Assembly: GCF_004103695.1 (NCBI RefSeq)
Contig: NZ_CP035280.1
Span: 744,001 to 808,000 of the forward strand
Direction of reading: 5' to 3'
DNA length: 64,000 nucleotides
Source of the DNA: Clostridium sp. JN-9
GTDB taxonomy: Bacteria > Bacillota > Clostridia > Clostridiales > Clostridiaceae
Shown: positions 303 through 39,508 of the stretch, piece by piece
How the letters are laid out: the number at the start of each line of letters is the position of its first letter
Numbering within the stretch: the first letter of the stretch is position 1
Position numbers and translations under genes: made by a program
Notes under the pieces: model-generated
What the model was told of the DNA's origin: nothing
The model's input: only the letters and a program-made list of their open reading frames with translations
Database searches by the model: none

Positions 303-315
303 GGTGGTGGAGGAA

Positions 316-1485
316 ATGAAGCTTAATCCAGTAACTGCAGCTTTATTAGTAGTGTTTCTTTATCCTATGTTAAAAGGCTTTTTGTTTGCATTTTCCTCAC
401 ATAGCTTAAAACTTGACATACAGGATGTTAATAAAAATGTTTCTTTTGTAATATCACTTTTTGCAGGGACATATTTTGGAAAAAATATTTTTATACAACA
501 TGAGAGAGGTATTTACAGGCAGATTTACAATGCAATACCTGACAATATAGCTGCATATATAAACAGCAATAAGTATATAATTTATTTTATTATAATTCCA
601 ATGCTTATTTATGTAATATACAATATTGTTTATTATATACTGGAAATTTTAAATAATTTAACTTTTTATCCTTTGCTCGATGGAATTGAAGATTCCCTTA
701 GGGATAAAAGCAAAATATTTAAAAGAGTTGCCGGAAGTTTATTTCAATTTCCAAAGTCAGTAAGCTATATATTGATTCTATCATTTTTATTCAACTTTAT
801 TTCTATTTTTAAGATTAACAATAAGTTTAATCAGTATGCTGAAGCATCTGTTCCATATAAAACAATATGTAAGGAAATAATTATACCAGTAACTAACTCT
901 AAAATCGCAAAACAGCTTCCTAATATATTAAACAATTCCTTTAAAATTGTAGTAAGGGAAAACAACCCGGGAAATGGTGATCAGACTATCCCTTCAAACA
1001 AGGCCATTGTTTACTATAATGGAGTTACACTGGATGAAGGAGTCCGTTCTAATGCATCTATAGATTCACTGGCAAGAAGGCTTGGAAATAACAGCGATAC
1101 TACAAGAGGAAAGGCTAAATTAATTTACAACTGGATAGGCAGCAATATAGACTACGATTATAATAAGGCAGACAGGGTTTTACAAAATGACTTTAATGTA
1201 CAATCTGGTGCCATTCCAACCTTTAACAGCGGTAAAGGTATATGTTTTGATTATTCCTGTTTATATGTAGCCATGAGCAGAGCAGATAATATTAAGGTAA
1301 GGCTCATAACAGGTGAAGGATTTAATGGTGTAAGCTGGGTAAGCCATGCATGGAATCAGGTATACATTCCTGAAGAGTCAAGATGGATTAATGTTGATAC
1401 AACTTTTTATAAAGGAGGGAACTATTTCGACAATAAGCGATTTGATTTAGACCATAGGGATGCAAAAATTGCCGGGCAGTGGTAA
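316..1485 (+). CDS. Membrane-anchored transglutaminase-like (cysteine protease fold) protein
   Basis: 389 residues. The first ~180 residues hold about four hydrophobic segments (about 5-26, around 45-60, 95-120 and 150-170). The C-terminal half is a transglutaminase-like core with a recognisable Cys-His-Asp triad: Cys310 in GKGICFDYS, His344 in WVSHAWNQV and Asp361 in WINVDTTF. Bacterial members of this superfamily are usually membrane-bound peptidases or amidases acting outside the cell; the substrate here is unknown. ATG 316 follows GGAGG by only 2 nt; an in-frame GTG at 304 is an alternative start. It lies 13 nt after recX and is followed by a deacetylase, but no functional link can be read from this. 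Confidence 0.75.
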   Translation: MKLNPVTAALLVVFLYPMLKGFLFAFSSHSLKLDIQDVNKNVSFVISLFAGTYFGKNIFIQHERGIYRQIYNAIPDNIAAYINSNKYIIYFIIIPMLIYVIYNIVYYILEILNNLTFYPLLDGIEDSLRDKSKIFKRVAGSLFQFPKSVSYILILSFLFNFISIFKINNKFNQYAEASVPYKTICKEIIIPVTNSKIAKQLPNILNNSFKIVVRENNPGNGDQTIPSNKAIVYYNGVTLDEGVRSNASIDSLARRLGNNSDTTRGKAKLIYNWIGSNIDYDYNKADRVLQNDFNVQSGAIPTFNSGKGICFDYSCLYVAMSRADNIKVRLITGEGFNGVSWVSHAWNQVYIPEESRWINVDTTFYKGGNYFDNKRFDLDHRDAKIAGQW

Positions 1486-1554: not shown

Positions 1555-2478
1555 ATGAGATCATTGAAAAGAGTAAAGAGAAAAAGAAGAATTTATAGAA
1601 GAAGAGTTATTTTCCTAGGTTTTATGGTATTAATTTTTATTATAGGTTTTTTTATAGGAGGAGGAATAGTAAAATATAAGGATAATTCAGCTGCAAAAGC
1701 TGCTGCTAGTGCAAAACGTACTAGTTCCGCTGAAGAGAAAGATGATAATATTAAAGCCAGTTCACTTGACAAAAAAAACCAGAGTAAGCTTGCGGATGCT
1801 AAAAAAACATCTACTGATTATGAAGCCAAAAGAGAAACTGAGGTACATGGATCTGACAGTATGGTTAACTTTAATCCATATAATCCTGATGGGCATAAAG
1901 TTGCATATTTAACATTTGATGATGGACCATCCAGAGATATTACCCCAAGTGTTCTGCAGATATTAGATAAATATAATATAAAAGCTACATTTTTCGTTGT
2001 TGGGGTTATGGCAGAACAGAATAAAGATCTTTTAATAAGAGAAAAGAATAATGGACACTCAATAGGGAATCATACATACAGTCATAATTATAAATATATC
2101 TATGCTTCACCAGGAAACTTAATAGCTGACTTAGATAAGAATAATTCTGTGATGAAAGGCATTTTGGGAAATGATTTTGATACAAAACTCATCAGATTCC
2201 CAGGAGGATCCTTTGGCAGCAGACTTCAGCCATTTAGAAATGCTGTGAAAGCTAAAGGATATTATTATGTTGATTGGAATGCATTAAATGGTGATGCAGA
2301 AGCTGTAAGTGTCCCCCAGGATAAATTAGTTACAAATTTAAGACAGACATCAGCAGGAAAACAGCATATAGTAGTATTGATGCATGACGCTCCTGGGAAA
2401 CATACAACTATTGAAGCGCTGCCTCAGATAATTGAATATTTAAAATCTCAGGGATATACTTTTAGAACTCTGAGATAA
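1555..2478 (+). CDS. Membrane-anchored polysaccharide deacetylase (NodB domain)
   Basis: 307 residues: a very basic N-terminus (1-18), one transmembrane anchor (about 19-37), a Lys/Ser/Ala-rich linker to about 100, then a carbohydrate esterase 4 (NodB) domain. The five CE4 motifs are visible: TFDDGPS with Asp122/Asp123, GHSIGNHTYSH with metal ligands His173 and His177, RFPGGSF, a DWN segment and LMHDAPGKHTT. This family removes N-acetyl groups from peptidoglycan or other cell-surface glycans, and the domain faces outward. ATG 1555 directly follows a G-run; TTG 1564 has better spacing to that run and may be the true start. A strong terminator follows the gene. Confidence 0.9.
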   Translation: MRSLKRVKRKRRIYRRRVIFLGFMVLIFIIGFFIGGGIVKYKDNSAAKAAASAKRTSSAEEKDDNIKASSLDKKNQSKLADAKKTSTDYEAKRETEVHGSDSMVNFNPYNPDGHKVAYLTFDDGPSRDITPSVLQILDKYNIKATFFVVGVMAEQNKDLLIREKNNGHSIGNHTYSHNYKYIYASPGNLIADLDKNNSVMKGILGNDFDTKLIRFPGGSFGSRLQPFRNAVKAKGYYYVDWNALNGDAEAVSVPQDKLVTNLRQTSAGKQHIVVLMHDAPGKHTTIEALPQIIEYLKSQGYTFRTLR

Positions 2479-2482
2479 AAAT

Positions 2483-2525
2483 AAATGACAGGTAATAACT
2501 ATTTTTGTTACCTGTCATTTATTTT
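2483..2525 (+). terminator. Rho-independent terminator after polysaccharide deacetylase gene
   Basis: Perfect 13-bp inverted repeat (arms 2483-2495 and 2508-2520, core ATGACAGGTAA/TTACCTGTCAT) with a 12-nt loop and a T-rich 3' tail, just after the stop at 2478. Confidence 0.85.
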
Positions 2526-2604
2526 ATTTATTATCTGAATATCTTTTACTAATGTTTGTAAATGATGTATAATTATGATATTAAGTCTGCTGTAGAGGTG
2601 TGAT

Positions 2605-3519
2605 ATGAAACTTGATAAAGATAAATTTAAAATACAGGGCATTGATATAAATCATGTAGATGATCCAATTGATATTCCTAATATTTCCTACACTGATAGC
2701 GTGATTATAAAATTAAAAAGCAATAAAGCTGCTATTTGTGTTTTAATAATATTTATAGTGGTATTAGCTGTAGTTTATATAGGACCTAAAGTAAGTAGAT
2801 ATGGATATAATACCACAAATGTTATGCTGAGAAATACGGCACCTTCAAAACTTCATATATTCGGAACAGATGAATACGGTAGAGATATTTTTACAAGAGT
2901 GTGTGTTGCAGTAAAAGTATCCCTTCTCATTGGAATAATTGTGGCAGCTTTTAATGTAATAATTGGTACAACCTATGGTGCCATTTGTGTTTATTATGGA
3001 GGCCTGGTAGATGATATTATAATGCGCATTGTGGAAATCGTAGCCAACATACCAAATTTACTACTGATAGTTTTATTATCACTGTTTCTTCAGCCTGGAA
3101 TAATAACCATAATAGCATCTATGTGCATTATAGGCTGGTGTAATGTGACACGGATAATCAGGGGACAGCTCTTACCAATAAAAGAGCAGGAATACATTTT
3201 GGCTTCGGAGGCTTTAGGAGCAGAAGCATCCAGAATAATAGTAAAACATATGCTGATTAATGCGATACCTACAATTATAGTTACATTTTCATTAGAGATA
3301 CCAAATGTGATTTTAAATGAATCAATATTAAGTTATATAGGTATGGGAGTTCAACCTCCTAATTTAAGCATAGGAACAATTGCAAGAGATTATATAGGCA
3401 TGTCTATGTTTCACCCATATCAAATGATTTTGCCTTCATTAGTTATTATAATTTTACTAATAAGCTTGAATGTGCTGGGGGATTGTTTAAGAGATGCACT
3501 GGATCCAAGGATCCTTTAG
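2605..3519 (+). CDS. Orphan ABC transporter permease of the OppC/DppC (peptide/nickel) type
   Basis: 304 residues. A cytoplasmic N-terminus (~45 residues) is followed by the typical OppC_N helix, the periplasmic-side motif FGTDEYGRDIFTR, and five further membrane segments. The EAA loop (EALGAEASRIIVKHML) that contacts an ABC ATPase is intact. OppC-type permeases normally pair with OppB, two ATPases and a binding protein, but none of these is adjacent: a terminator precedes the gene and an unrelated exported membrane protein follows after 15 nt. SD AGAGGTGTGAT precedes ATG 2605. The fold is confident; the substrate and partners are unknown. Confidence 0.8.
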   Translation: MKLDKDKFKIQGIDINHVDDPIDIPNISYTDSVIIKLKSNKAAICVLIIFIVVLAVVYIGPKVSRYGYNTTNVMLRNTAPSKLHIFGTDEYGRDIFTRVCVAVKVSLLIGIIVAAFNVIIGTTYGAICVYYGGLVDDIIMRIVEIVANIPNLLLIVLLSLFLQPGIITIIASMCIIGWCNVTRIIRGQLLPIKEQEYILASEALGAEASRIIVKHMLINAIPTIIVTFSLEIPNVILNESILSYIGMGVQPPNLSIGTIARDYIGMSMFHPYQMILPSLVIIILLISLNVLGDCLRDALDPRIL

Positions 3520-3534
3520 AATGGGGTGGTATTA

Positions 3535-5082
3535 GTGAAAAAAAATGTTTTCATGGTAATCTGCATTTTAATTGTTGTCATATTGTTTTCATTTCATACT
3601 TATATAAACATAAATAATAGAATAAAACCACCTTCAGATAAATGGTCCAAAGAAGTTCTTATAACAGAAAGCAATATTACAACTCCTCCTAAAATAATTA
3701 AATATAAAAATAATTATTTAATGGCATATAATAATGGCAGCAATGTAGAGATAAGAGAGACAAATGACTTAGGAATTACAAAAAAAGTTACTGAAATAAA
3801 ATCGCAATATAAAAATATAAATAATCTATGCTTAATAACAGATGGAGATAATGTCTATGTGAGCTGGCTTAATTATACAAGCAATAGCGTAAAAGCATTT
3901 TTTGTTAAGCTGAATAATCAATTAAACATTATTGATAAATCAGAAGACGATAGTATCAAGGAAATAATTCAAATAGGAAGTTCCTATTTTGCATGGATTG
4001 GTGACAACGTAATCAACATATATGATGCTTATTTGAACAAAAATTACAAACTTAATGTTAGGGAGCCATCAATGCTGGCTGGAACTATGGCTAAGGACAA
4101 AGCTGTGCTTACCTATGTGGATTTGAATAACAAAGTATATTGCTTAAATATTAATTCCAACGGAATAACTAAACCTATAAAAGCTGCAGCCATAGAGGGA
4201 ATGTCCAGAATATCATTTTATAGTGCTGCATTGGTTACAGATGAAAAGTCTGGGTATTTAATTATAGGATACAGCTATGAAAACATACAAGGAAACAACA
4301 GAATGGTAAAGTTTAATTTAGACGGCAGCGGTTATTCTACCAAAGAGCTAAGACAATTTACAGCGCTAAACACAGTTCCGGGGGAGATACCTGATAAGCC
4401 GGTTTTTATGTCAAATGTGCAGACTCTTTTTAGAAATAAATATCTGCATGAAGACATTATGGAATATATGATAAAAGATTCTCAACTTGTGGAGAGTAAT
4501 CTGGTATCAAGAACAAATGAGGCCACAATATACCCGGCAGTCTGCGGTGATACAGCTTTATTCTGTGACAGCTATCAGCCAGACAGATACAAGTTATATA
4601 TGACTTCCACAAGAGAAAATTTTAAGAAGGAATACAATGGAATAAAAAAAGGTGAAATTATTCAGGCATTAAATGATACTTTTCAAAGCTTCGTATATAG
4701 CGTATTTGATATTATTGTATATGGTTCTCTCTGGATACTTCCAACAATCTGCATTGTAAGTATAATAAGTTTATTTGAATTTAGGTTAAAACTGAACAAG
4801 AGAAAAATTATTTATATTATCGGTTATTTAATTGCAGTACTTATTAAGATTTTTGTGGTTTACGCAGTTTCATTTAGAAAGTATTCTTACGTTATTCCAA
4901 AGTGGTTTAAGCCCATAGAAGGTATTATAATTGCCTTAATAATAAGTATATTATGTATTTCTTATGGATTTAAGAAATACACTGATGATACCAGTTCTAA
5001 TGTGCTTGTATTTAGTTTATCAAAGATTTTAATTATAGATACTATTCTGACACAAATGGTATTTATACCTTTTATGATTTAA
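3535..5082 (+). CDS. Unrecognised membrane protein: N-terminal anchor, exported propeller-like domain, four C-terminal TM helices
   Basis: 515 residues from GTG 3535, which has a GGGGTGG-like SD; an upstream in-frame GTG (3526) lacks one. A single N-terminal hydrophobic segment (signal anchor) is followed by about 350 residues rich in short beta-strand-like stretches (for example NNYLMAYNNG, YFAWIGDNV, GYLIIGYSY), suggesting a repetitive beta-propeller-like exterior domain. At the C-terminus come about four hydrophobic helices (roughly 390-515). I do not recognise the family. It starts 15 nt after the orphan OppC-like permease and shares its operon, with a terminator directly behind it, so the two products probably act together at the membrane. 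Confidence 0.7.
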   Translation: MKKNVFMVICILIVVILFSFHTYININNRIKPPSDKWSKEVLITESNITTPPKIIKYKNNYLMAYNNGSNVEIRETNDLGITKKVTEIKSQYKNINNLCLITDGDNVYVSWLNYTSNSVKAFFVKLNNQLNIIDKSEDDSIKEIIQIGSSYFAWIGDNVINIYDAYLNKNYKLNVREPSMLAGTMAKDKAVLTYVDLNNKVYCLNINSNGITKPIKAAAIEGMSRISFYSAALVTDEKSGYLIIGYSYENIQGNNRMVKFNLDGSGYSTKELRQFTALNTVPGEIPDKPVFMSNVQTLFRNKYLHEDIMEYMIKDSQLVESNLVSRTNEATIYPAVCGDTALFCDSYQPDRYKLYMTSTRENFKKEYNGIKKGEIIQALNDTFQSFVYSVFDIIVYGSLWILPTICIVSIISLFEFRLKLNKRKIIYIIGYLIAVLIKIFVVYAVSFRKYSYVIPKWFKPIEGIIIALIISILCISYGFKKYTDDTSSNVLVFSLSKILIIDTILTQMVFIPFMI

Positions 5083-5083
5083 T

Positions 5084-5113
5084 AAAAAATCACCAGCCTG
5101 CTGGTGATTTTTT
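5084..5113. terminator. Bidirectional terminator between convergent genes
   Basis: Inverted repeat with CACCAG/CTGGTG core flanked by A-run and T-run (5084-5113). It can serve both the plus-strand unit ending at 5082 and the minus-strand TPR gene ending at 5128. Confidence 0.85.
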
Positions 5114-5127
5114 ACTTATTCCATATT

Positions 5128-5568: not shown

Positions 5569-6372
5569 TCAGTTTTTATAACTATATTTAATTATTTTTT
5601 CTAAAAATGCCACACCTTCATACATTAAATAAGCAAGTATAGATAAAATTATTATGCTGAACATAACCATATCCAGCTGAGAAATCTGACCTCCGAAAAT
5701 TATCAGGAAACCCAGACCCTCCTTGGCAACCAGGAATTCACCCATTATAACACCTACCCAGGACAATCCCACATTGATTTTAAGTGCAGACATAAAAGTA
5801 GGTATTGATGCAGGCAGAATTAAATTCGTAAGGATTTGAATTTTTTTGGCGCCAAAAGTTTTTAATAATTTAATTTTATCCTCATCTACTTCATTAAAGC
5901 CATTGAGAACTGATATTATAGTGACAACAACTGATATTAAAAGAGCTATAACAATTATTGCAGTTATACCATTACCAACCCAGAATATAATAATAGGTGC
6001 TAATGCAACTTTTGGAAGTGCATTTAAAACTACTAAATATGGTTCCAGAACTTTGTTTAAAAAATCTGACCACCATAGTAATACAGCTATTAATGTACCA
6101 AGTAATGTACCTAGGACAAATCCAATAATGGTTTCATAACATGTTATGAAAATGTGCCTGAATAAAGTACCTTCATTGTAGACTTTCACTAAGCTTTTAA
6201 CCATTCTGCTTGGGGTACTTGTAAGAAAGGGATCTATAATTTTTAAGTCTCCAAGAAGTTCCCATAGAGCAAAGAAAACTATCAGAATCAGTATTCTGAC
6301 AAATACTATTTTCCTTTTTCTTGACCTTACATTTTTTAAATATTTATTATGTTCCTCAAATTCATTTATCAC
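5569..6372 (-). CDS. ABC transporter permease, SsuC/TauC (nitrate/sulfonate/taurine/NMT1) type
   Basis: 267 residues with about six membrane segments. After the first helix (IVFVRILILIVFFALWELL) comes the family's conserved TSTPSRM segment; the EAA loop (LLKTFGAKKIQILTNLILPASIP) lies near the middle. The GTG start at 6372 overlaps the TAG of the ATPase gene (TAGTG), so translation is coupled. The permease and ATPase form a two-gene operon without a binding protein; the NMT1-type lipoprotein at 24539-25582 is the best candidate partner. Substrate (sulfonate, pyrimidine precursor or other) is not determinable from sequence. Confidence 0.88.
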   Translation of the reverse strand: MINEFEEHNKYLKNVRSRKRKIVFVRILILIVFFALWELLGDLKIIDPFLTSTPSRMVKSLVKVYNEGTLFRHIFITCYETIIGFVLGTLLGTLIAVLLWWSDFLNKVLEPYLVVLNALPKVALAPIIIFWVGNGITAIIVIALLISVVVTIISVLNGFNEVDEDKIKLLKTFGAKKIQILTNLILPASIPTFMSALKINVGLSWVGVIMGEFLVAKEGLGFLIIFGGQISQLDMVMFSIIILSILAYLMYEGVAFLEKIIKYSYKN

Positions 6373-7130
6373 TAATTATTCAACTCCTTCCATATATCGT
6401 TAAAGTAGTCTTTGAATTCCTTAGCTTTTCTGGATTTTAATGGAGAGTTATACTGCTCTGAAAAAGTAATATCAAATATTTTACTTATATGAGAAGGACG
6501 CCTTGTAAGAACGATTACTCTGTTGGACATACTGATTGCCTCTGAAATATCATGTGTTACCATTATAACTGTCTTTTTTTCTTTTTTTATAATATTAAAT
6601 ATCTCATCGCTTATATTAAGTCTTGTCTGGTAATCCAGGGCAGAAAAAGGTTCATCTAAAAGCAGTACCTCAGGGTTTAATGCCAAAGTTCGAATTAGTG
6701 CAACCTTCTGCCTCATGCCCCCTGATAATTCATTAGGATAATGACTTATAAAGTCTGAAAGGCCATAGGATTTAAGCATTTCTGTAACTTTTCCTTTTGT
6801 TTCATCATTTATTTTATGTTGAATTTTAAGGCCTAAAAGCACATTATCCAATACGCTAAGCCAGTCAAATAACTGATCTTTTTGAAACATATAGCCTATT
6901 TTTGGAGAAAAGCTGGTGCTTAATTCCTGATCTATATACACTTCACCATGGGAAGGCTTAAGAAGTCCTGCAATTATGTTCAAAAGAGTGGATTTACCAC
7001 AGCCTGAAGGGCCTACAATGCTTAAAAATTCACCATCCTCAACATTAAAAGTGATATTCTCAATTGCAGTGGTTAAATTATCTATTGAATGGTAGTTCAT
7101 AACAATATTATTTACTGCCACTTTATTCAT
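6372..7130 (-). CDS. ABC transporter ATP-binding protein, SsuB/TauB type
   Basis: 252 residues. Walker A GPSGCGKST, Q-loop (YMFQKDQLF), signature LSGGMRQ, Walker B VLLLDEPFSALD and the switch His in MVTHDISEA are all present, so the ATPase should be active. The 'MFQ...L.W' sequence after Walker A is characteristic of the nitrate/sulfonate/taurine subfamily. ATG 7130 lies 9 nt after AGGAG; an in-frame ATG at 7139 abuts the SD and is unlikely. It is translationally coupled to the permease downstream. Confidence 0.9.
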   Translation of the reverse strand: MNKVAVNNIVMNYHSIDNLTTAIENITFNVEDGEFLSIVGPSGCGKSTLLNIIAGLLKPSHGEVYIDQELSTSFSPKIGYMFQKDQLFDWLSVLDNVLLGLKIQHKINDETKGKVTEMLKSYGLSDFISHYPNELSGGMRQKVALIRTLALNPEVLLLDEPFSALDYQTRLNISDEIFNIIKKEKKTVIMVTHDISEAISMSNRVIVLTRRPSHISKIFDITFSEQYNSPLKSRKAKEFKDYFNDIWKELNN

Positions 7131-7401
7131 AAAAATCATCTCCTAGGATTTATATTTTAGTATATGAAAGTAAATAATATAGTGTTAAAAGTATTTCATC
7201 CAGCATATAACATATGTGTACTGAATATTACAAATAACATTGTTTATTGTTACAATCTAGAGTAAAATGGCTTTTCTTCTGGTTTATAATCAGTTTTGTT
7301 GATTTATCTTTGAAAAACTATGTAATTTGCAATTTTTAAAATATATTAAAAAGTTGTAATATTTATATTATATAGTTTAGTGATTAAGGAGGGTAGGTTG
7401 T

Positions 7402-7716
7402 ATGGAGTATACAATTAAGAAAATTATATCCATTGATAAAGATGCAGAAAATTATAGAAAATCGCTAAATCAGAGACTTACCAATGAAAAAAAGGATTTA
7501 GAGAATACCCTGGCGGATATGAGGAATGATTCTAAAAAAAATTTAGAAAAATTAAAGAAGGAAGTAATAGAAAAGAAATTAGGTGAATCAGATAAAATGG
7601 CAGAGCAGATTAGAAATGAAAAGGCTATAGAAATGGAGAATATAAATAAAAAAATCAATGACATAAAGGGAAAAATAATAAGTGATACCATGAATAATAT
7701 ACTAAGCTCCAGATAG
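7402..7716 (+). CDS. V-type ATPase peripheral stalk subunit G/H-like
   Basis: 104 residues, almost entirely charged helix (Lys/Glu-rich, with heptad-like spacing), as expected for the coiled-coil peripheral-stalk subunit that pairs with subunit E. It is the first gene of the operon, preceded by a strong SD (AAGGAGGG 7386-7393) and followed after 10 nt by subunit C. Assignment is by position, size and coiled-coil character; sequence alone is weakly diagnostic, and the naming (F, G or H) differs between annotation systems. Confidence 0.75.
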   Translation: MEYTIKKIISIDKDAENYRKSLNQRLTNEKKDLENTLADMRNDSKKNLEKLKKEVIEKKLGESDKMAEQIRNEKAIEMENINKKINDIKGKIISDTMNNILSSR

Positions 7717-16243: not shown

Positions 16244-19200
16244 ATGAAAAATTTATTTCACGTGGGACTGGATGTAGGGTCAACTACTGTAAAAATAGTT
16301 ATAAATGATAAAAATGATAAAACAATTTACAGTAAGTATCAAAGGCATTTTGCTGATATAAAAAACACTATAATCCAGCTTATATCAGAAGCATATAATA
16401 TAATTAAAGATCAGTATGTAACCATCATGGTAACAGGATCAGGCGGATTGTCTGTATCCAAGTGGATGAATATCTCATTTATACAGGAAGTAATAGCCTG
16501 CACAACTACTATAGAAAAATATATACCTGAAACAGATGTGGCTATTGAACTTGGTGGTGAGGATGCAAAAATAACATTTTTTGATGGCGATGGCGGTGTA
16601 GATCAAAGAATGAATGGAAGCTGTGCTGGTGGTACAGGTGCCTTCATAGATCAAATGGCTGCACTGCTGCAGACAGATGCTCAGGGAGTTAATGAACTGG
16701 CTAAAAGTCATAAAATGATTTATCCTATTGCTGCAAGATGCGGAGTATTTGCAAAAACGGATATTCAGCCTTTATTAAATGAAGGTGCAGCCAGAGAAGA
16801 TATTGCAGCTTCAGTGTTTCAGTCTGTAGTTAATCAGACTATCAGCGGACTTGCCTGCGGAAAAACCATTAAGGGTAACGTGGCATTCTTAGGAGGACCG
16901 TTGTATTTCATGTCAGAGCTTAGAAACAGATTTATAGAAACATTAAAGCTTACACCTGAGCAGGTTATTTTTCCTGAAAATTCACAGCTTTTTGTGGCTA
17001 TGGGAGCTGCTTTGGCATCTAAAAAAGAACAGGTAATTGAATTTAAATCATTAATTGATAAGATACCAACTCTGAGAGATGCTCATAGCGATGATATTCA
17101 AAGCGTAAGAGCATTATTTGAAAATGAACAGGAATTTTCGGAGTTTACCAAAAGACATGATAAATATAAGGTTAAAAAGGGACAATTATCTTCTGCAAAA
17201 GGAGGATGCTACTTAGGAATAGATGTGGGTTCTACTACTACAAAGGCAGTTATAGTAGATAAGGAAGGCACTTTGCTTTATTCATACTATGGAAGCAATG
17301 AGGGAAGTCCTTTAAAAGCTACTGTAAAAATATTGAAGGAAGTTTATAAATTGATGCCTAAGGAAGCTTATCTGGCAAATTCGGCAGTAACAGGCTATGG
17401 TGAAGCACTGGTAAAAGCCGCCCTCAATGTAGATATAGGAGAAGTGGAGACAGTAGCTCACTTCAAGGCAGCAGAATTTTTCCAGCCTGGTGTGGATTCT
17501 ATCCTAGACATAGGCGGACAGGATATGAAATATCTTAAGATAAAAGACGGTGTAATTGACAGCATAATGTTAAATGAAGCATGTTCTGCAGGCTGTGGCT
17601 CATTTATAGAAAACTTTGCAAATTCAATGAACATGCCTGTGCAGCAGTTTGCAAAAGAAGCATTGTTTGCAAAAAAACCCGTGGATTTAGGCTCCAGATG
17701 TACAGTATTTATGAACTCAAAAGTTAAACAGGCCCAAAAAGAAGGGGCAACTGTAGGAGATATATCTGCAGGACTATCATACTCAGTAATAAGAAATGCA
17801 CTGCAAAAGGTTATTAAAATCAGAAACCCAAAGGATATGGGGAAAAAGATAATAGTTCAGGGAGGCACTTTTTATAATGATGCCATTTTAAGAGCCTTTG
17901 AGCTTATATCTGAAAGAGAAGTTGTAAGACCTGATATAGCAGGACTTATGGGTGCCTTTGGAGCTGCAATAATTGCAAAAGAGGCTTCTAATCAGGAAAG
18001 CAGAAGTTCCATTGCTACCTTGGAGAAACTTGGCAAATTTAGTACCACTGTTACCATGAAAAGATGCGGCAAGTGCGGGAACAACTGTTTAATGACAATT
18101 AATAAATTTTCTGACGGCAGGGAATTTATATCAGGAAACAGATGTGAAAGAGGTCTTGGAAAGGAAATAACAAATTCAGATATTCCTAATTTATATGATT
18201 ACAAATATAAAAGAGTATTTAATTATATACCATTAAAAAAACAGGAAGCAAAAAGAGGAGTAGTAGGAATACCAAGGGTTTTAAACATTTATGACAATTA
18301 TCCTTTCTGGTTTACCTTCTTCACTAATTTGGGCTTTAGGGTGGAAATTTCACCAAGATCATCAAAGAATATATATAACCTTGGAATTGAAACAATTCCA
18401 TCTGAATCAGCTTGTTATCCTGCTAAACTGTCACATGGACATATAATGAGCTTAATAAACAGAAATGTAGATATAATATTTTATCCATGTATTCCTTATG
18501 AACAAAAGGAACAGGAGAAGGCAGACAACCATTATAACTGCCCAATTGTAACTTCATATCCTGAAGTTATTAAAAATAACATGGATATAATAAGAGAAAA
18601 AAATATAAAGTTCATGAATCCATTTCTGTCTTTAGATGATCCAGGAAGGCTAAAAAAGAGACTATATGAGGAATTTAGTGAATTTAATATAACTAAAAAG
18701 GAAATTAATAATGCAGTTGATCTTGCCTTTGCTGAGCTTGCAAATATGAAAAATGACATAAGGAGAAAAGGCGAAGAGGTAGTTAAGTATCTAAAGGATA
18801 ATAATAAAAAGGGTATTGTTTTAGCTGGAAGACCATATCATATTGATCCGGAAATAAACCACGGCATACCAAATTTAATTACTTCATTTGGTTTAGCGGT
18901 TTTAACAGAGGATTCTGTGGCACATTTAGGTGATGTGGAAAGACCATTAAGAGTAGTGGATCAATGGGCTTATCATTCCAGGCTGTATGCAGCTGCAAGC
19001 TTTGTAGCTAAACAAAAAAACCTTGAATTGATTCAGCTTAATTCCTTTGGCTGCGGTTTGGATGCAGTTACAACGGATCAGGTTCAGGAAATACTTAAGG
19101 CATACGATAAAGTTTATACTGTTCTAAAAATAGATGAAGGCAGCAATTTAGGTGCAATAAAAATAAGAATAAGATCTCTTCTGGCAGCTATGGATGAAAG

Positions 19201-20542
19201 GGATAAAAATGGCTTTGTGCCAACTAAAGTAATTAATGCACCTAAGAGGATTCTTTTTACAGAAGAAATGAGAAAACAACACACAATACTGGTGCCTCAA
19301 ATGTCTCCTATTCATTTTCAATTTATTGAGGAGGCATTGAAGTCCTGTGGCTATAATGTAGTAGTTCTTCCTTCTGTGGATAAGAATGCTGTAAATGAAG
19401 GCTTGAAATATGTAAACAATGATGCATGCTATCCTTCAATTATTGTTGTGGGTCAGATGATTGCAGCTTTGAAAAGCGGAAAGTACGACTTAAATAACAC
19501 TTCTGTGTTAATGTCTCAGACCGGCGGCGGATGCAGGGCTACAAACTACATTGGATTTTTAAGAAAGGCCTTAAAGGATGCAGGTTTTGGAAATGTTCCT
19601 GTTATATCTGTAAATACAGTAGGAATGGAGAAAAATCCAGGATTCAAGTTAACAATTGGTCTTGGAATAAAAAGCTTAATGGCTGTGATTTATGGTGATC
19701 TATTTATGAAAGTGCTTTACAAAGTCAGACCTTATGAGAAAATTAAGGGATCTGCAAATTTACTATATGAAAAATGGATCGAAAAATGTAAAGAAAATAT
19801 AAGAAATGAAAATCATAAAGAGTTCATAAGCAATATAAGAAGTATAATTCAAGAATTCGATGATCTTGAGATTAACAATGTAGAAAAGCCAAGGGTGGGA
19901 GTAGTTGGAGAAATACTTGTGAAATATCACCCTACAGCTAATAACGATATAGTTTCAGTAATTGAAAATGAAGGCGCTGAAGCTGTATTACCGGATCTTC
20001 TGGGATTTGTTCTGTATAGTGCCTATAATTATAACTTTAAATATAAATATTTGTCAGGTTCCAGAAAAGCAAAAGTAATTGGTAACATGGTGATTAAATT
20101 TATTGAGTATTATACCAGAGAAATGAACAGTGCATTAAGCAAGAGTAAAAGATTCGAACCATCTAAACCTATTGAAGAACTGGTAGATAAGGCTTCTAAA
20201 ATTGTATCAATAGGCAATCAGACTGGAGAGGGCTGGTTCCTCACAGCAGAGATGATAGAGCTTATTGAAAGCGGTACAAAAAATATACTATGTGTACAGC
20301 CCTTTGCCTGCCTTCCAAACCATGTCACAGGTAAAGGCATGATAAAAGAACTAAAGAGAAAATATCCAGGATCCAATATTGCTGCAATTGATTATGATCC
20401 AGGAGCATCTGAGGTAAATCAATTAAACAGGATTAAATTAATGCTATCAGTGGCATTTAAAGCACTGGAAAAGGATGATAAATTTGACCTGGAGGAAGCA
20501 CAAAACCAGGTTGCGGCAACAGACAGTAATAAAACATCATAA
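16244..20542 (+). CDS. Giant 2-hydroxyacyl-CoA dehydratase activase-type protein (double ASKHA, BcrAD/BadFG plus DUF2229)
   Basis: 1432 residues. Two ASKHA ATPase modules lie in tandem: [13 protein letters not shown] (about 6-18) with [15 protein letters not shown] and [10 protein letters not shown], and [15 protein letters not shown] (about 325) with [14 protein letters not shown] and SRCTVFMNS. The Cys in each pair matches the bridging Fe-S cysteines of HgdC-type activators. A Cys-rich segment (CGKCGNNC...GNRCERG, about 605-640) precedes a DUF2229 region, and the C-terminal ~450 residues resemble a dehydratase-like half. HgdC-type activators inject electrons into Fe-S dehydratases at the cost of ATP; this long class is widespread in clostridia without a known substrate. 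It is monocistronic, with its own terminator. Confidence 0.85.
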
Positions 20543-35445: not shown

Positions 35446-35496
35446 TGGTAAAAATTATTATTTAAATATATAAACATATTTAGCGGGGTGTATAAA

Positions 35497-38145
35497 GTGG
35501 AAGATTCAAAAAATATCAGCAAAACATATGATCCAAAAGAATTCGAAGACAAAATATATGAATGGTGGCAGGAAAAAAAGTTATTTACACCTAAAGTGGA
35601 TAAAAGTAAAAAGCCATACACAATTATGATGCCTCCTCCTAATATTACAGGAAAACTGCATTTAGGTCATGCACTGGATAATGCCATGCAGGATTTCTTA
35701 ATAAGGGTAAAAAGAATGCAGGGATACAGCACTTTGTGGCTTCCAGGTGAGGATCATGCCAGCATTGCAACTGAGGTCAAGGTAGAAAATGAGCTTCTTA
35801 AAAAAGGACTTAAGAAAAAAGAAATGGGAAGGGAAGCTTTCCTTGAAAAAGTGTGGCAGTGGACTGATGAATACAGGGAAAGAATCAGAAAACAGCTTAA
35901 GAAAATGGGATGTTCCGCAGATTTTACAAGAGAAAGCTTTACTATGGATGAAAAGCTTGATAAAGCTGTTAAGACGGTGTTTGTAAAATTATATAATGAA
36001 GGGTTAATTTATCAGGGAAACAGATTAATAAACTGGTGTCCAAAATGTAAAACAGCATTGTCAGATGCTGAAATTGAATACAGTGAGCAGGAAGGGCACT
36101 TCTGGCATATTAAATATCCAGTAGTAGGAAGCGATGAATTCTTAGAGATAGCTACCACAAGGCCTGAAACCATGCTTGGAGATTCTGCAGTAGCAGTAAA
36201 TCCAAGGGATTCAAGATATACTCATTTAGTTGGAAATAAATTAATACTTCCACTGGTTAACAGAGAAATACCAATAATAGCTGATGACTACGTGGACATG
36301 GAATTTGGAACAGGTGCAGTTAAAATAACTCCTGCTCATGATCCAAATGATTATCAGGTTGGAAAGAGACATAACCTTGATGAAATCATAATAATGAATG
36401 AGGATGGCACTATAAGACAGCCTGGTACAAAATATGACGGCCTGGACAGATATGAGGGGAGAAAATTAATTGTTTCAGACTTAGAAAAGCTTGGACTGCT
36501 GGTTAAAGTAAAAGAACACAGTCATAATGTAGGCTGTCACGACAGATGCGGTACAGTTGTGGAGCCAATGGTTTCAAAACAGTGGTTTGTAAAAATGGAA
36601 GGCCTTGCAAAGCCGGCTATTGAAGCTGTAAGAAACAAGGAAACAAAGTTTGTGCCTGAAAGATTTGATAAAATATATTTTAACTGGATGGAAAATATTC
36701 AGGACTGGTGTATTTCAAGACAGCTGTGGTGGGGACACAGAATACCTGTATGGTACTGTAAAGACTGCGGAAAGGTTATAGTTTCAGTAGATGCACCGAA
36801 GAAATGTGATGGCTGTGGAAGCAGTAATTTACAGCAGGATAAGGATGTACTTGATACCTGGTTCTCATCGGCACTGTGGCCATTTTCAACATTAGGCTGG
36901 CCTGATGAAACTGAGGACTTAAAATATTTTTATCCAACATCAACTTTGGTAACAGGCTATGATATTATATTCTTCTGGGTGGCCAGAATGATATTCTCAG
37001 GTATTCATAATATGGGAGAGGTACCTTTTGAAACTGTGCTGATTCATGGCATAGTAAGAGATTCTCAGGGCAGAAAAATGTCAAAATCTCTTGGTAATGG
37101 CGTGGATCCACTGGATGTAATTGATAAATATGGTGCTGATGCATTAAGATTTATGCTGATTACAGGTAATGCAGCAGGCAGTGATATAAGATTCTATGAG
37201 GAAAAGGTAGAATCAGCAAGAAATTTTGCAAACAAGATCTGGAATGCATCAAGGTTTGTACTAATGAACTTAGACAGAGATCTTATGGAAAAATATAAAA
37301 ACTGCCATAATTACTCACTGGCAGATAAATGGATATTATCAAGAACAAATACTATAGTAGAAGAGGTTACTTCCAATATTGATAAATATGAACTGGGAAT
37401 AGCTTCACAGAAGGTTTATGACTTTATGTGGGGAGAATTCTGTGACTGGTACATTGAACTTGTAAAGCCGGTTATGTATGGTGATGATGAAGAGGCAAAG
37501 GGTGTTGCTTATAATGTATTAAACAAAGTATTAACCATTGGACTGCAGCTCCTTCACCCAGTAATGCCATTTATTACAGAGGAAATTTATCTTCATCTGG
37601 AAAGACAATATGAATCCATAACAATATCAAAATGGCCTGAATATGAGGAAGCACTGCACAATGAAAAAGCTGAGAAAGAAATGGAATATATAATTGAAGC
37701 CATTAAATCCATAAGAAATGTGAGAACAGAAATGAATGTACCACCTTCCAGAAAGGCTAAGATAATGGCATTCATTACAGAAAATGAATCTAAGCCTGCC
37801 TTTGAAGAAGGAAAAGTTTACTTTGAAAAACTGGCTTCTGCAAGCTCCGTTGAATTTTTAAATTCCAAGGAACAGGTACCTGATAATGCAGTTTCAGTAG
37901 TTACCTCGGCAGGTGAAATATTTATTCCTCTATTTGACTTAATAGATAAGGAAAAAGAGCTGGAAAGATTAAATAAGGAAAAAGAAAAACTGGAAAGTGA
38001 AATTAAAAGAGTTGAAAATAAACTTTCAAATGAGAAGTTTGTATCCAGAGCTCCTGAATCAGTAGTCAATGAAGAAAGAGCAAAGGGCGATAAATATAAT
38101 GAAATGCTGAAAGCTGTTCTTCAAAGATTACAGGGCTTAAAGTAA
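35497..38145 (+). CDS. valS: Valyl-tRNA synthetase
   Basis: 882 residues, normal length. Class I signature HLGH (codons 35659-35670) within [21 protein letters not shown], and KMSKS (37075-37089). The editing domain segment [18 protein letters not shown], a Zn-binding cluster (CKDCGKVI...KKCDGCG), the anticodon-binding domain and the C-terminal coiled coil (from about residue 815) are present. It charges tRNA-Val. GTG 35497 lies 8 nt behind GCGGGG; an in-frame GTG at 35488 overlaps that SD. Controlled by the T-box leader; folC follows after 25 nt, so both are probably under T-box control. Confidence 0.97.
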
Positions 38146-38170
38146 ATATGTAATTGGGGGCGCATTACAA

Positions 38171-39508
38171 ATGAATTATCATGAAGCCATGGAGTATATA
38201 AATGATACAGCTAAATTTGGGAGCAACCTTGGACTTTCCAGAACTGAAAAACTTCTGGAACACCTGGGGAATCCCCATAAAAAGTTAAAATGTGTACACA
38301 TTGCCGGAACTAACGGGAAAGGCTCTATTACTGTTATGCTCAGCACAATGCTGAGAGAAGCAGGGTATAAAGTTGGTATGTATACATCACCATACCTTGA
38401 GGAATTTGAAGAGAGAATTCAAATTAATGGAGTTAATATACCAAAATCTGATTTAGCTGAAGCAGTAACTCAGGTGGCAGAGGCTGTAGACAAGGTACTT
38501 AAGGAAGGCTATGACAATCCAACGGAATTTGAAATTATAACCTGTGCCATGTTCTATTACTTTTATAAAATGAAGGTTGATTATGCCGTTATGGAGGTTG
38601 GATTAGGGGGGAGACTTGATTCCACCAATGTACTTACAGCAGGAAACGGATTTGGAACACTGGTTAGTGTAATAGCTTCCATAAGCTATGATCATATGAA
38701 TATTCTGGGAAATACATTAGGTGAAATAGCACATGAAAAGGCAGGTATAATTAAAAAGAATATACCTTTGGTGCTTTATCCTCAGGAGCCTGAGGCACAG
38801 CAGGTCATAGAAGACACTGCCTTAAAAATGAACAGTAAAATAATTAATGTAAATAAAAACTCTGTGGCTTATGAAGATGAATTAAATCCTATGAATAGTG
38901 ACTTTACACAATCCATAGTGGTAAAATCCAATAAAGATACTTATCATATTAAGTTATCACTTCTGGGACAGCACCAGCTTCTTAACTGTGCTACTGCAAT
39001 ATATGCAGCAGAGCAGTTAATTCAGGCAGGAGCAGTAAAGCTTAAGAAAGGCAGCATAGAAACTGCTTTGAGCAAAGTAAAATGGCCTGGAAGACTGGAA
39101 GTAATGAGTAAAGAGCCATTTATAGTAATTGATGGGGCACATAATATTGATGGAATCACAAAGCTCACAGACAGCGTTAAAACATATTTCAAATATAATA
39201 AAATGATTTTGATTTTAGGAATATTGGCGGATAAACAAATTGATGCCATGATTAGTCAAATTGCTCCCATGGCAGATAAAATAATAACAGTGAGCCCTCA
39301 CAGTTCAAGGGCAGAGAGCTCAGATAAGCTTAAGAATGCAATTTTGAATTATAACAGAAATTGTGAGAACATTGATGATTATGAAAAGGCACTGAAAAAG
39401 GCAGTTTCATATATGCAAAAAGGTGATTTGCTCCTTATAAGCGGTTCATTATACATGATAGGTGATATGAGGAAAACAATAAAAAGGAGTATTTCAGAAC
39501 TACTTTAA
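38171..39508 (+). CDS. folC: Folylpolyglutamate synthase / dihydrofolate synthase
   Basis: 445 residues. Mur-ligase superfamily: P-loop HIAGTNGKGSITVML, the FolC signature region (FEIITCAMFYYFYKMKVDYAVMEVGLGGRLDSTNV), SYDHMNILGNTLGEIAHEKAGIIK, and the C-terminal domain with VIDGAHNIDGI. It adds glutamate to folates (and possibly to dihydropteroate). SD GGGGGCG precedes ATG 38171. The last eight codons and the stop are part of a 23-bp perfect terminator stem. Confidence 0.95.
   Translation: MNYHEAMEYINDTAKFGSNLGLSRTEKLLEHLGNPHKKLKCVHIAGTNGKGSITVMLSTMLREAGYKVGMYTSPYLEEFEERIQINGVNIPKSDLAEAVTQVAEAVDKVLKEGYDNPTEFEIITCAMFYYFYKMKVDYAVMEVGLGGRLDSTNVLTAGNGFGTLVSVIASISYDHMNILGNTLGEIAHEKAGIIKKNIPLVLYPQEPEAQQVIEDTALKMNSKIINVNKNSVAYEDELNPMNSDFTQSIVVKSNKDTYHIKLSLLGQHQLLNCATAIYAAEQLIQAGAVKLKKGSIETALSKVKWPGRLEVMSKEPFIVIDGAHNIDGITKLTDSVKTYFKYNKMILILGILADKQIDAMISQIAPMADKIITVSPHSSRAESSDKLKNAILNYNRNCENIDDYEKALKKAVSYMQKGDLLLISGSLYMIGDMRKTIKRSISELL

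Follow-up and report, generated by a model that had tools for sequence, protein, structure and literature searches.

A predicted beta-propeller membrane protein encoded with a solitary OppC-type permease in Clostridiaceae is a candidate accessory subunit of Opp-type peptide importers

The Opp/Dpp importers are among the best-studied of bacterial transporters, in connection with nutrition, quorum-sensing peptides and peptide antibiotics; to our knowledge, all those that have been described are built from the same five kinds of subunit. The E. coli protein MppA is an orphan substrate-binding protein, which borrows the housekeeping OppBCDF translocator, and there are also homodimeric type I importers with a single kind of permease, such as MetNI. 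The E. coli structure shows the ATPase DppF docked by Asn210 and Asn214 of the permease DppC (PMC12136057). The locus that we describe here lies in a 64,000-nucleotide stretch ("the window") of the genome of Clostridium sp. JN-9 (a single contig of 3.22 Mb; family Clostridiaceae, coded f1), and consists of a gene for a solitary OppC-type permease, which we call OppC', and a gene for a partner membrane protein, which we call X (Table 1).

Both genes are real and belong to one operon, with 15 bp between them and a separate ribosome-binding site for X (GGGGTGG, 3523-3529). As the original prediction had it, they make up a self-contained unit with a terminator on each side, and both hairpins fold far better than shuffled sequence. 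Promoter-like sites in the region are no more numerous than chance would give; the one upstream of oppC' is plausible. The earlier statement that no OppB, ATPase or binding protein is encoded nearby holds for Opp-type genes, none of which we found near the pair in the window, but not for ABC transporter genes at large: an SsuC/SsuB-type permease and ATPase pair, with no adjoining binding-protein gene, lies on the minus strand, convergent with it (5569-7139). Relatives of these two proteins, at 60-73% identity, are encoded near X genes of a sister family (genomes G050, G039 and G053; loci L027, L028 and L030), where a binding protein is present, and the SsuC/SsuB pair of the window may be a trace of an ancestral neighbourhood of X. 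The sister family also has valS and a folC-like gene beside X; in the window the two are found at 35488-39508. Elsewhere in the window, the gene at 304-1485 (+), which lies upstream of one for a peptidoglycan deacetylase-like protein (1555-2478), encodes a membrane protein whose N-terminal part is helical and whose C-terminal domain is transglutaminase-like; and 16244-20542 (+) encodes a 1432-aa BcrAD/BadFG and DUF2229 CoA-enzyme-activase-like protein, directly 3' of a V-type ATPase operon.

Table 1. Features of the oppC'-X locus (window coordinates)
Feature	Position	Strand	Details
Intrinsic-terminator-like hairpin, between the upstream polysaccharide deacetylase gene and the pair	2478..2525	+	20-pair stem; -25.2 kcal/mol; z -9.35
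Promoter-like site TTTACT-17-TATAAT	2545..2573	+	10/12 matches; tentative
Solitary OppC-type permease (OppC'), 304 aa	2605..3519	+	RBS AGAGGTG at 2594-2600; BPD_transp_1 and OppC_N; X-paired OppC clade
Coupling (EAA) loop, residues 196-218 of OppC'	3190..3258	+	Positions mapped on DppC 8z1v (PMC12136057)
X, predicted membrane-anchored seven-bladed beta-propeller protein with four C-terminal TM helices, 515 aa	3535..5082	+	GTG start; AlphaFold2, hydropathy
Predicted N-terminal membrane anchor of X, residues 3-29	3541..3621	+	No lipobox; AlphaFold2, hydropathy
Predicted extracytoplasmic propeller of X, residues 41-358	3655..4608	+	28 strands = 7 blades x 4 (DSSP on model)
Predicted C-terminal four-helix membrane domain of X, residues 389-514	4699..5076	+	AlphaFold2, hydropathy
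Bidirectional terminator hairpin, common to X and a convergent TPR gene	5083..5114	.	-16.7 kcal/mol; z -7.68

The partner had been described as a 515-residue protein with an anchor, a propeller-like exterior and four C-terminal helices, and our AlphaFold2 model (from a 56-sequence alignment; pLDDT 91.9, pTM 0.86) agrees: X is, as modelled, a beta-propeller, with a closed ring of four-stranded blades. A conserved family motif, PPSxxWSK (residues 32-39), lies just after the anchor, and Trp400, Lys438, Tyr482 and Asp502 are conserved in the membrane domain. With Foldseek, against the PDB and viral models, the propeller matched seven-bladed propellers with a TM score of about 0.4 over the query; these were generic propellers only, and no match covered the membrane part. 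The original remark that this protein could be placed in no family was borne out, with no match above cut-off in Pfam or NCBIfam and nothing significant in a profile search of the PDB. Weak Pfam matches (Orbi_NS1, DUF5122, ThrE, DUF4131) were below cut-off, were made by 1-6 of the 56 members at best, and were rejected. None of the papers found in a literature search describes X or the oppC'-X pair.

X is a family of 49 full-length copies in 24 of 207 Clostridiaceae genomes, with further members in a sister family; its relatives came from whole-genome profile searches, a single-sequence scan of genome contigs with X having found none. A search for co-occurrence of the two genes in other Clostridia, which had been proposed as a check, found it: in 12 genomes of 7 Clostridiaceae genera a solitary OppC gene and an X gene are direct neighbours with a common orientation, -17 to 77 bp apart (the genes overlapping or touching in three of the loci). 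One locus has two X copies (G165) and one has the gene order reversed (G217); the genes which flank the pair mostly differ between genera. Chance adjacency of X and OppC is about 0.25-0.5% per locus, which gives p < 1e-16 before allowing for ancestry; and in a control of 55 other OppC loci across bacteria, found by sequence alone, X was nearby in 1, itself a known pair. That all 13 paired X proteins form one clade was rejected (AU p 4e-77), 12 of them falling within a clade of 15 and the exception being that of G217. The main unexplained fact is that no Opp gene adjoins about 35 of the 49 Clostridiaceae X copies; these may serve opp operons elsewhere in their genomes, or have another role.

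One such copy is in the genome of the window itself (L025:6392-7999; G000:C1:2249394-2250968), adjoining purD and without an OppC; related copies of G032, G207 and G208 have a similar purine-gene neighbourhood. Three X genes stand in tandem in the sister family, away from Opp genes (L030:2314-7459, G053), and tandem X genes are also found at L068, L080, L083, L084, L099 and L299. Weak profile matches in G027, G021, G089, G203 and G370 were set aside as chance or as unrelated propellers; and the high-scoring OppC of G019 was rejected as a further case, as its gene is part of a regular opp operon.

Distant X proteins turned up in another setting when the phylum was searched with a profile. In family f79 the gene directly follows oppF of an oppABCDF operon in 6 of 6 genomes (one operon being cut by a contig end), a decayed copy being present in one further genome of this family, and in family f161, of the class Clostridia, oppF is directly upstream of X in 10 of 11 readable loci, the remaining one being inside an opp cluster; together this makes 16 of 17 loci with readable flanks. 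These distant proteins align with Clostridiaceae X over the whole length (hhalign, E 3.7e-37 over 512 columns), have the PSxxW motif after the anchor in common with it and, in the model of an f79 member (pLDDT 88.8), show the same anchor-propeller-four-helix architecture. In the Clostridiaceae genomes G031 and G211, X lies just upstream of complete opp operons. X thus adjoins opp genes in f79, f161 and these two genomes as well as in the pairs, and is tied to several OppC lineages, at least three different ones in three families. The pair had been predicted to be an undescribed two-protein membrane system; as a unit it is indeed conserved amid changing flanks, but X, being found also in complete opp operons, is not specific to it. 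X may yet be the tethered sensor or binding domain of a permease that had been given as an example.

Two further loci are of note. At L303 (G626; 7297-7602) there is a decayed X fragment 3' of oppABCDF, which shows that opp-X operons can lose their X gene; and at L202:6239-10080 (G400) a distant X gene is divergent from neighbouring genes for an ABC ATPase and a short ABC permease, the latter of molybdate type as judged by eye, so that X-like propellers may also serve other type I importers.

In trees of the 12 paired OppCs with 40 to 49 OppCs from complete operons, a single branch set all 12 apart (SH-aLRT 100 in one tree; UFBoot 100 and SH-aLRT 99 in another), outside all OppCs of opp-X operons. 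The evolution of OppC' is several times faster than that of its canonical counterparts, and because of this long branches, which could inflate the clade, are a caveat on it; independent sequence marks (positions 218, 231 and 237, below) agree with the clade. On this sequence evidence the OppC' lineage is an ancient one, a clade of its own. Its reading frames are intact in all 12 genomes, and comparisons of close relatives gave dN/dS values of 0.24-0.25 (paired OppC), 0.13-0.33 (paired X) and 0.14-0.27 (canonical OppC). With purifying selection like that on canonical OppC, the oppC'-X pair is therefore a maintained, functioning unit.

These results bear on two simpler readings of the pair. It might be left over from a complete opp-X operon that recently lost oppA, B, D and F, as the original prediction had foreseen as its own undoing; and since X does occur in complete opp operons of relatives, half of that is what we found. 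However, the OppC' of the pairs is not the OppC of those operons: the tree contradicts such a break-off, no other opp remnants lie beside any pair, and the two-gene state is common to 7 genera, so that we hold a simple break-off to be very improbable indeed. Alternatively, X could be an envelope protein unrelated to Opp, which shares operons by happenstance, with OppC' a decaying paralogue. The many X copies without an Opp neighbour, and the fast evolution of OppC', would suit this; but association with at least three OppC lineages would not, nor would intact frames in 12 of 12 genomes at a dN/dS like that of canonical OppC, and we find it improbable. A functional tie of X to Opp is, in our judgement, highly likely.

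The window OppC' is an OppC by family: it passed the Pfam cut-offs for BPD_transp_1 (1e-26; 94.1 bits, cut-off 26.4) and OppC_N (2e-7; 31.3 bits, cut-off 23.9), its PDB relatives are E. coli OppC (8z21, E 4e-58) and DppC (8z1v, E 2e-42), and it has six predicted hydrophobic segments. It falls below the curated cut-off of every named Opp equivalog (Opp3C, Opp4C and OppC), the best being Opp3C with 286 bits against 450. The FGTDEYGRD motif is present as predicted, at residues 86-94. The EAA loop, which had been called intact, is so only in part: Ala200, Gly205, His215 and Asn219 are retained, but the closing Pro218 is replaced by Ile, which leaves the loop incomplete. That proline is found in 40 of 40 canonical OppCs and in 1 of 12 paired ones; conversely, Glu231 (11/12 against 2/40) and Leu237 (11/12 against 1/40) mark the paired proteins, and the canonical N-terminal motif of OppC is lost in the OppC' clade. 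Positions 215 and 219, which correspond to the ATPase-docking residues N210 and N214 of DppC, are occupied by His and Asn, respectively, in every one of the 52 sequences (12/12 OppC', 40/40 canonical), and the EAA Gly and Ala are likewise invariant in 12/12 OppC'. Retention of the docking residues favours a coupled permease, whereas the missing EAA proline and the high rate of evolution could leave room for a sensor role, or for uncoupling from the ATPase.

Two complete oppABCDF operons are present elsewhere in the window genome, at 1.377 and 2.67 Mb. Its totals are 3 OppC against 2 OppB and 2 OppD/OppF sets, and thus the lone OppC is without a dedicated partner anywhere in the genome. The pair could be a non-transporting receptor, in which X and OppC' would sense peptides or an envelope ligand outside the cell and signal via OppC', for instance by drawing OppB/OppDF away from canonical OppC in competition with it and thereby throttling uptake; or OppC' could form an importer with subunits made elsewhere. 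A receptor would account for a pair with no ATPase, OppB or binding protein of its own, for the fast evolution of OppC' with its missing proline, and for X being often encoded alone. We nevertheless think it unlikely, given that a non-coupled remnant would not need His215, Asn219 and the EAA Gly/Ala that all 12 OppC' retain, that no signalling domain or regulator gene accompanies the pair, and that the X of f79 and f161 belongs to complete importer operons. As an importer, OppC' might act as a homodimer upon a shared ATPase pair, with X in place of the binding protein; OppC' is the sole permease of its operon, X brings the only extracytoplasmic domain, and homodimeric type I importers like MetNI are known. 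Such homodimerisation is possible but less likely, and we give it little credence: the nearest relatives of OppC' are obligate heterodimer partners of OppB (PMC12136057), and the contacts on the OppF side are retained while nothing suggests a gain of OppB-like contacts with OppD.

X ends oppABCDF operons in two other families and is therefore best read as an accessory Opp subunit, probably one that has gone unrecognised in bacterial peptide importers; the window pair we read as a derived module. We propose that X would serve Opp-type (oligopeptide) ABC importers as an extracytoplasmic subunit anchored in the membrane, its gene standing at the end of oppABCDF operons either in the ancestral state or on repeated occasions, and that in Clostridiaceae a duplicated and diverged OppC may have become locked to it as a two-gene module. 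OppC' would substitute for canonical OppC, joining OppB and the OppD/OppF ATPases encoded elsewhere, while the four C-terminal helices of X would bind the complex and hold the propeller over its extracytoplasmic mouth. There the propeller could receive or screen a particular class of peptides, or dock a binding protein, as a receptor, platform or filter; the outcome would be an alternative specificity for one and the same ATPase engine. We infer the physical association of X and OppC' with the Opp complex, the exchange of subunits and the role of the propeller; the explanation as a whole, with this specific mechanism (X over the mouth of a complex that OppC' forms with OppB and OppD/F from other loci), is the best that we have, and in our estimation an even prospect. 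More tentative, and somewhat doubtful, is the idea of a new peptide-importer architecture, in which a propeller subunit as receptor or gate and a swappable OppC' would re-target one OppB/OppDF engine, in the strongest form with no class C binding protein.

If the proposal is true, X would be an unnoticed sixth subunit, a membrane-integrated propeller, which is found in the opp operons of two clostridial families and which in a third is tied to an OppC dedicated to it; and there would be a testable reason for the surplus OppC genes of genomes. A widespread uncharacterised protein family also gains a name and a neighbourhood.

Among described systems, X resembles extracytoplasmic beta-propellers (WD40, NHL, PQQ-like and WalA-type) in its seven predicted blades outside the membrane and in having its gene beside that of a membrane system, but it has no sequence match to the propeller families of Pfam, NCBIfam or the PDB, and it combines an uncleaved anchor with four conserved C-terminal membrane helices. 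WalA of C. difficile is described as a propeller lipoprotein encoded beside a histidine kinase (PMC9210968), a description which sets it apart from X. To OppABCDF/DppABCDF, of type I, the locus is linked by a permease whose Pfam and PDB matches, FGTDxxGRD motif and EAA core are those of an OppC, and by the distant X genes within such operons; it differs in that the window unit lacks oppA, B, D and F, and OppC' has neither the EAA proline nor the N-terminal motif of canonical OppC. X is not known among the components of described Opp systems. Like orphan binding proteins of the MppA type, it is an extracytoplasmic partner encoded apart, which would share the OppDF engine; unlike them it is predicted to be a propeller rather than a class C binding protein, and it has an OppC paralogue of its own.
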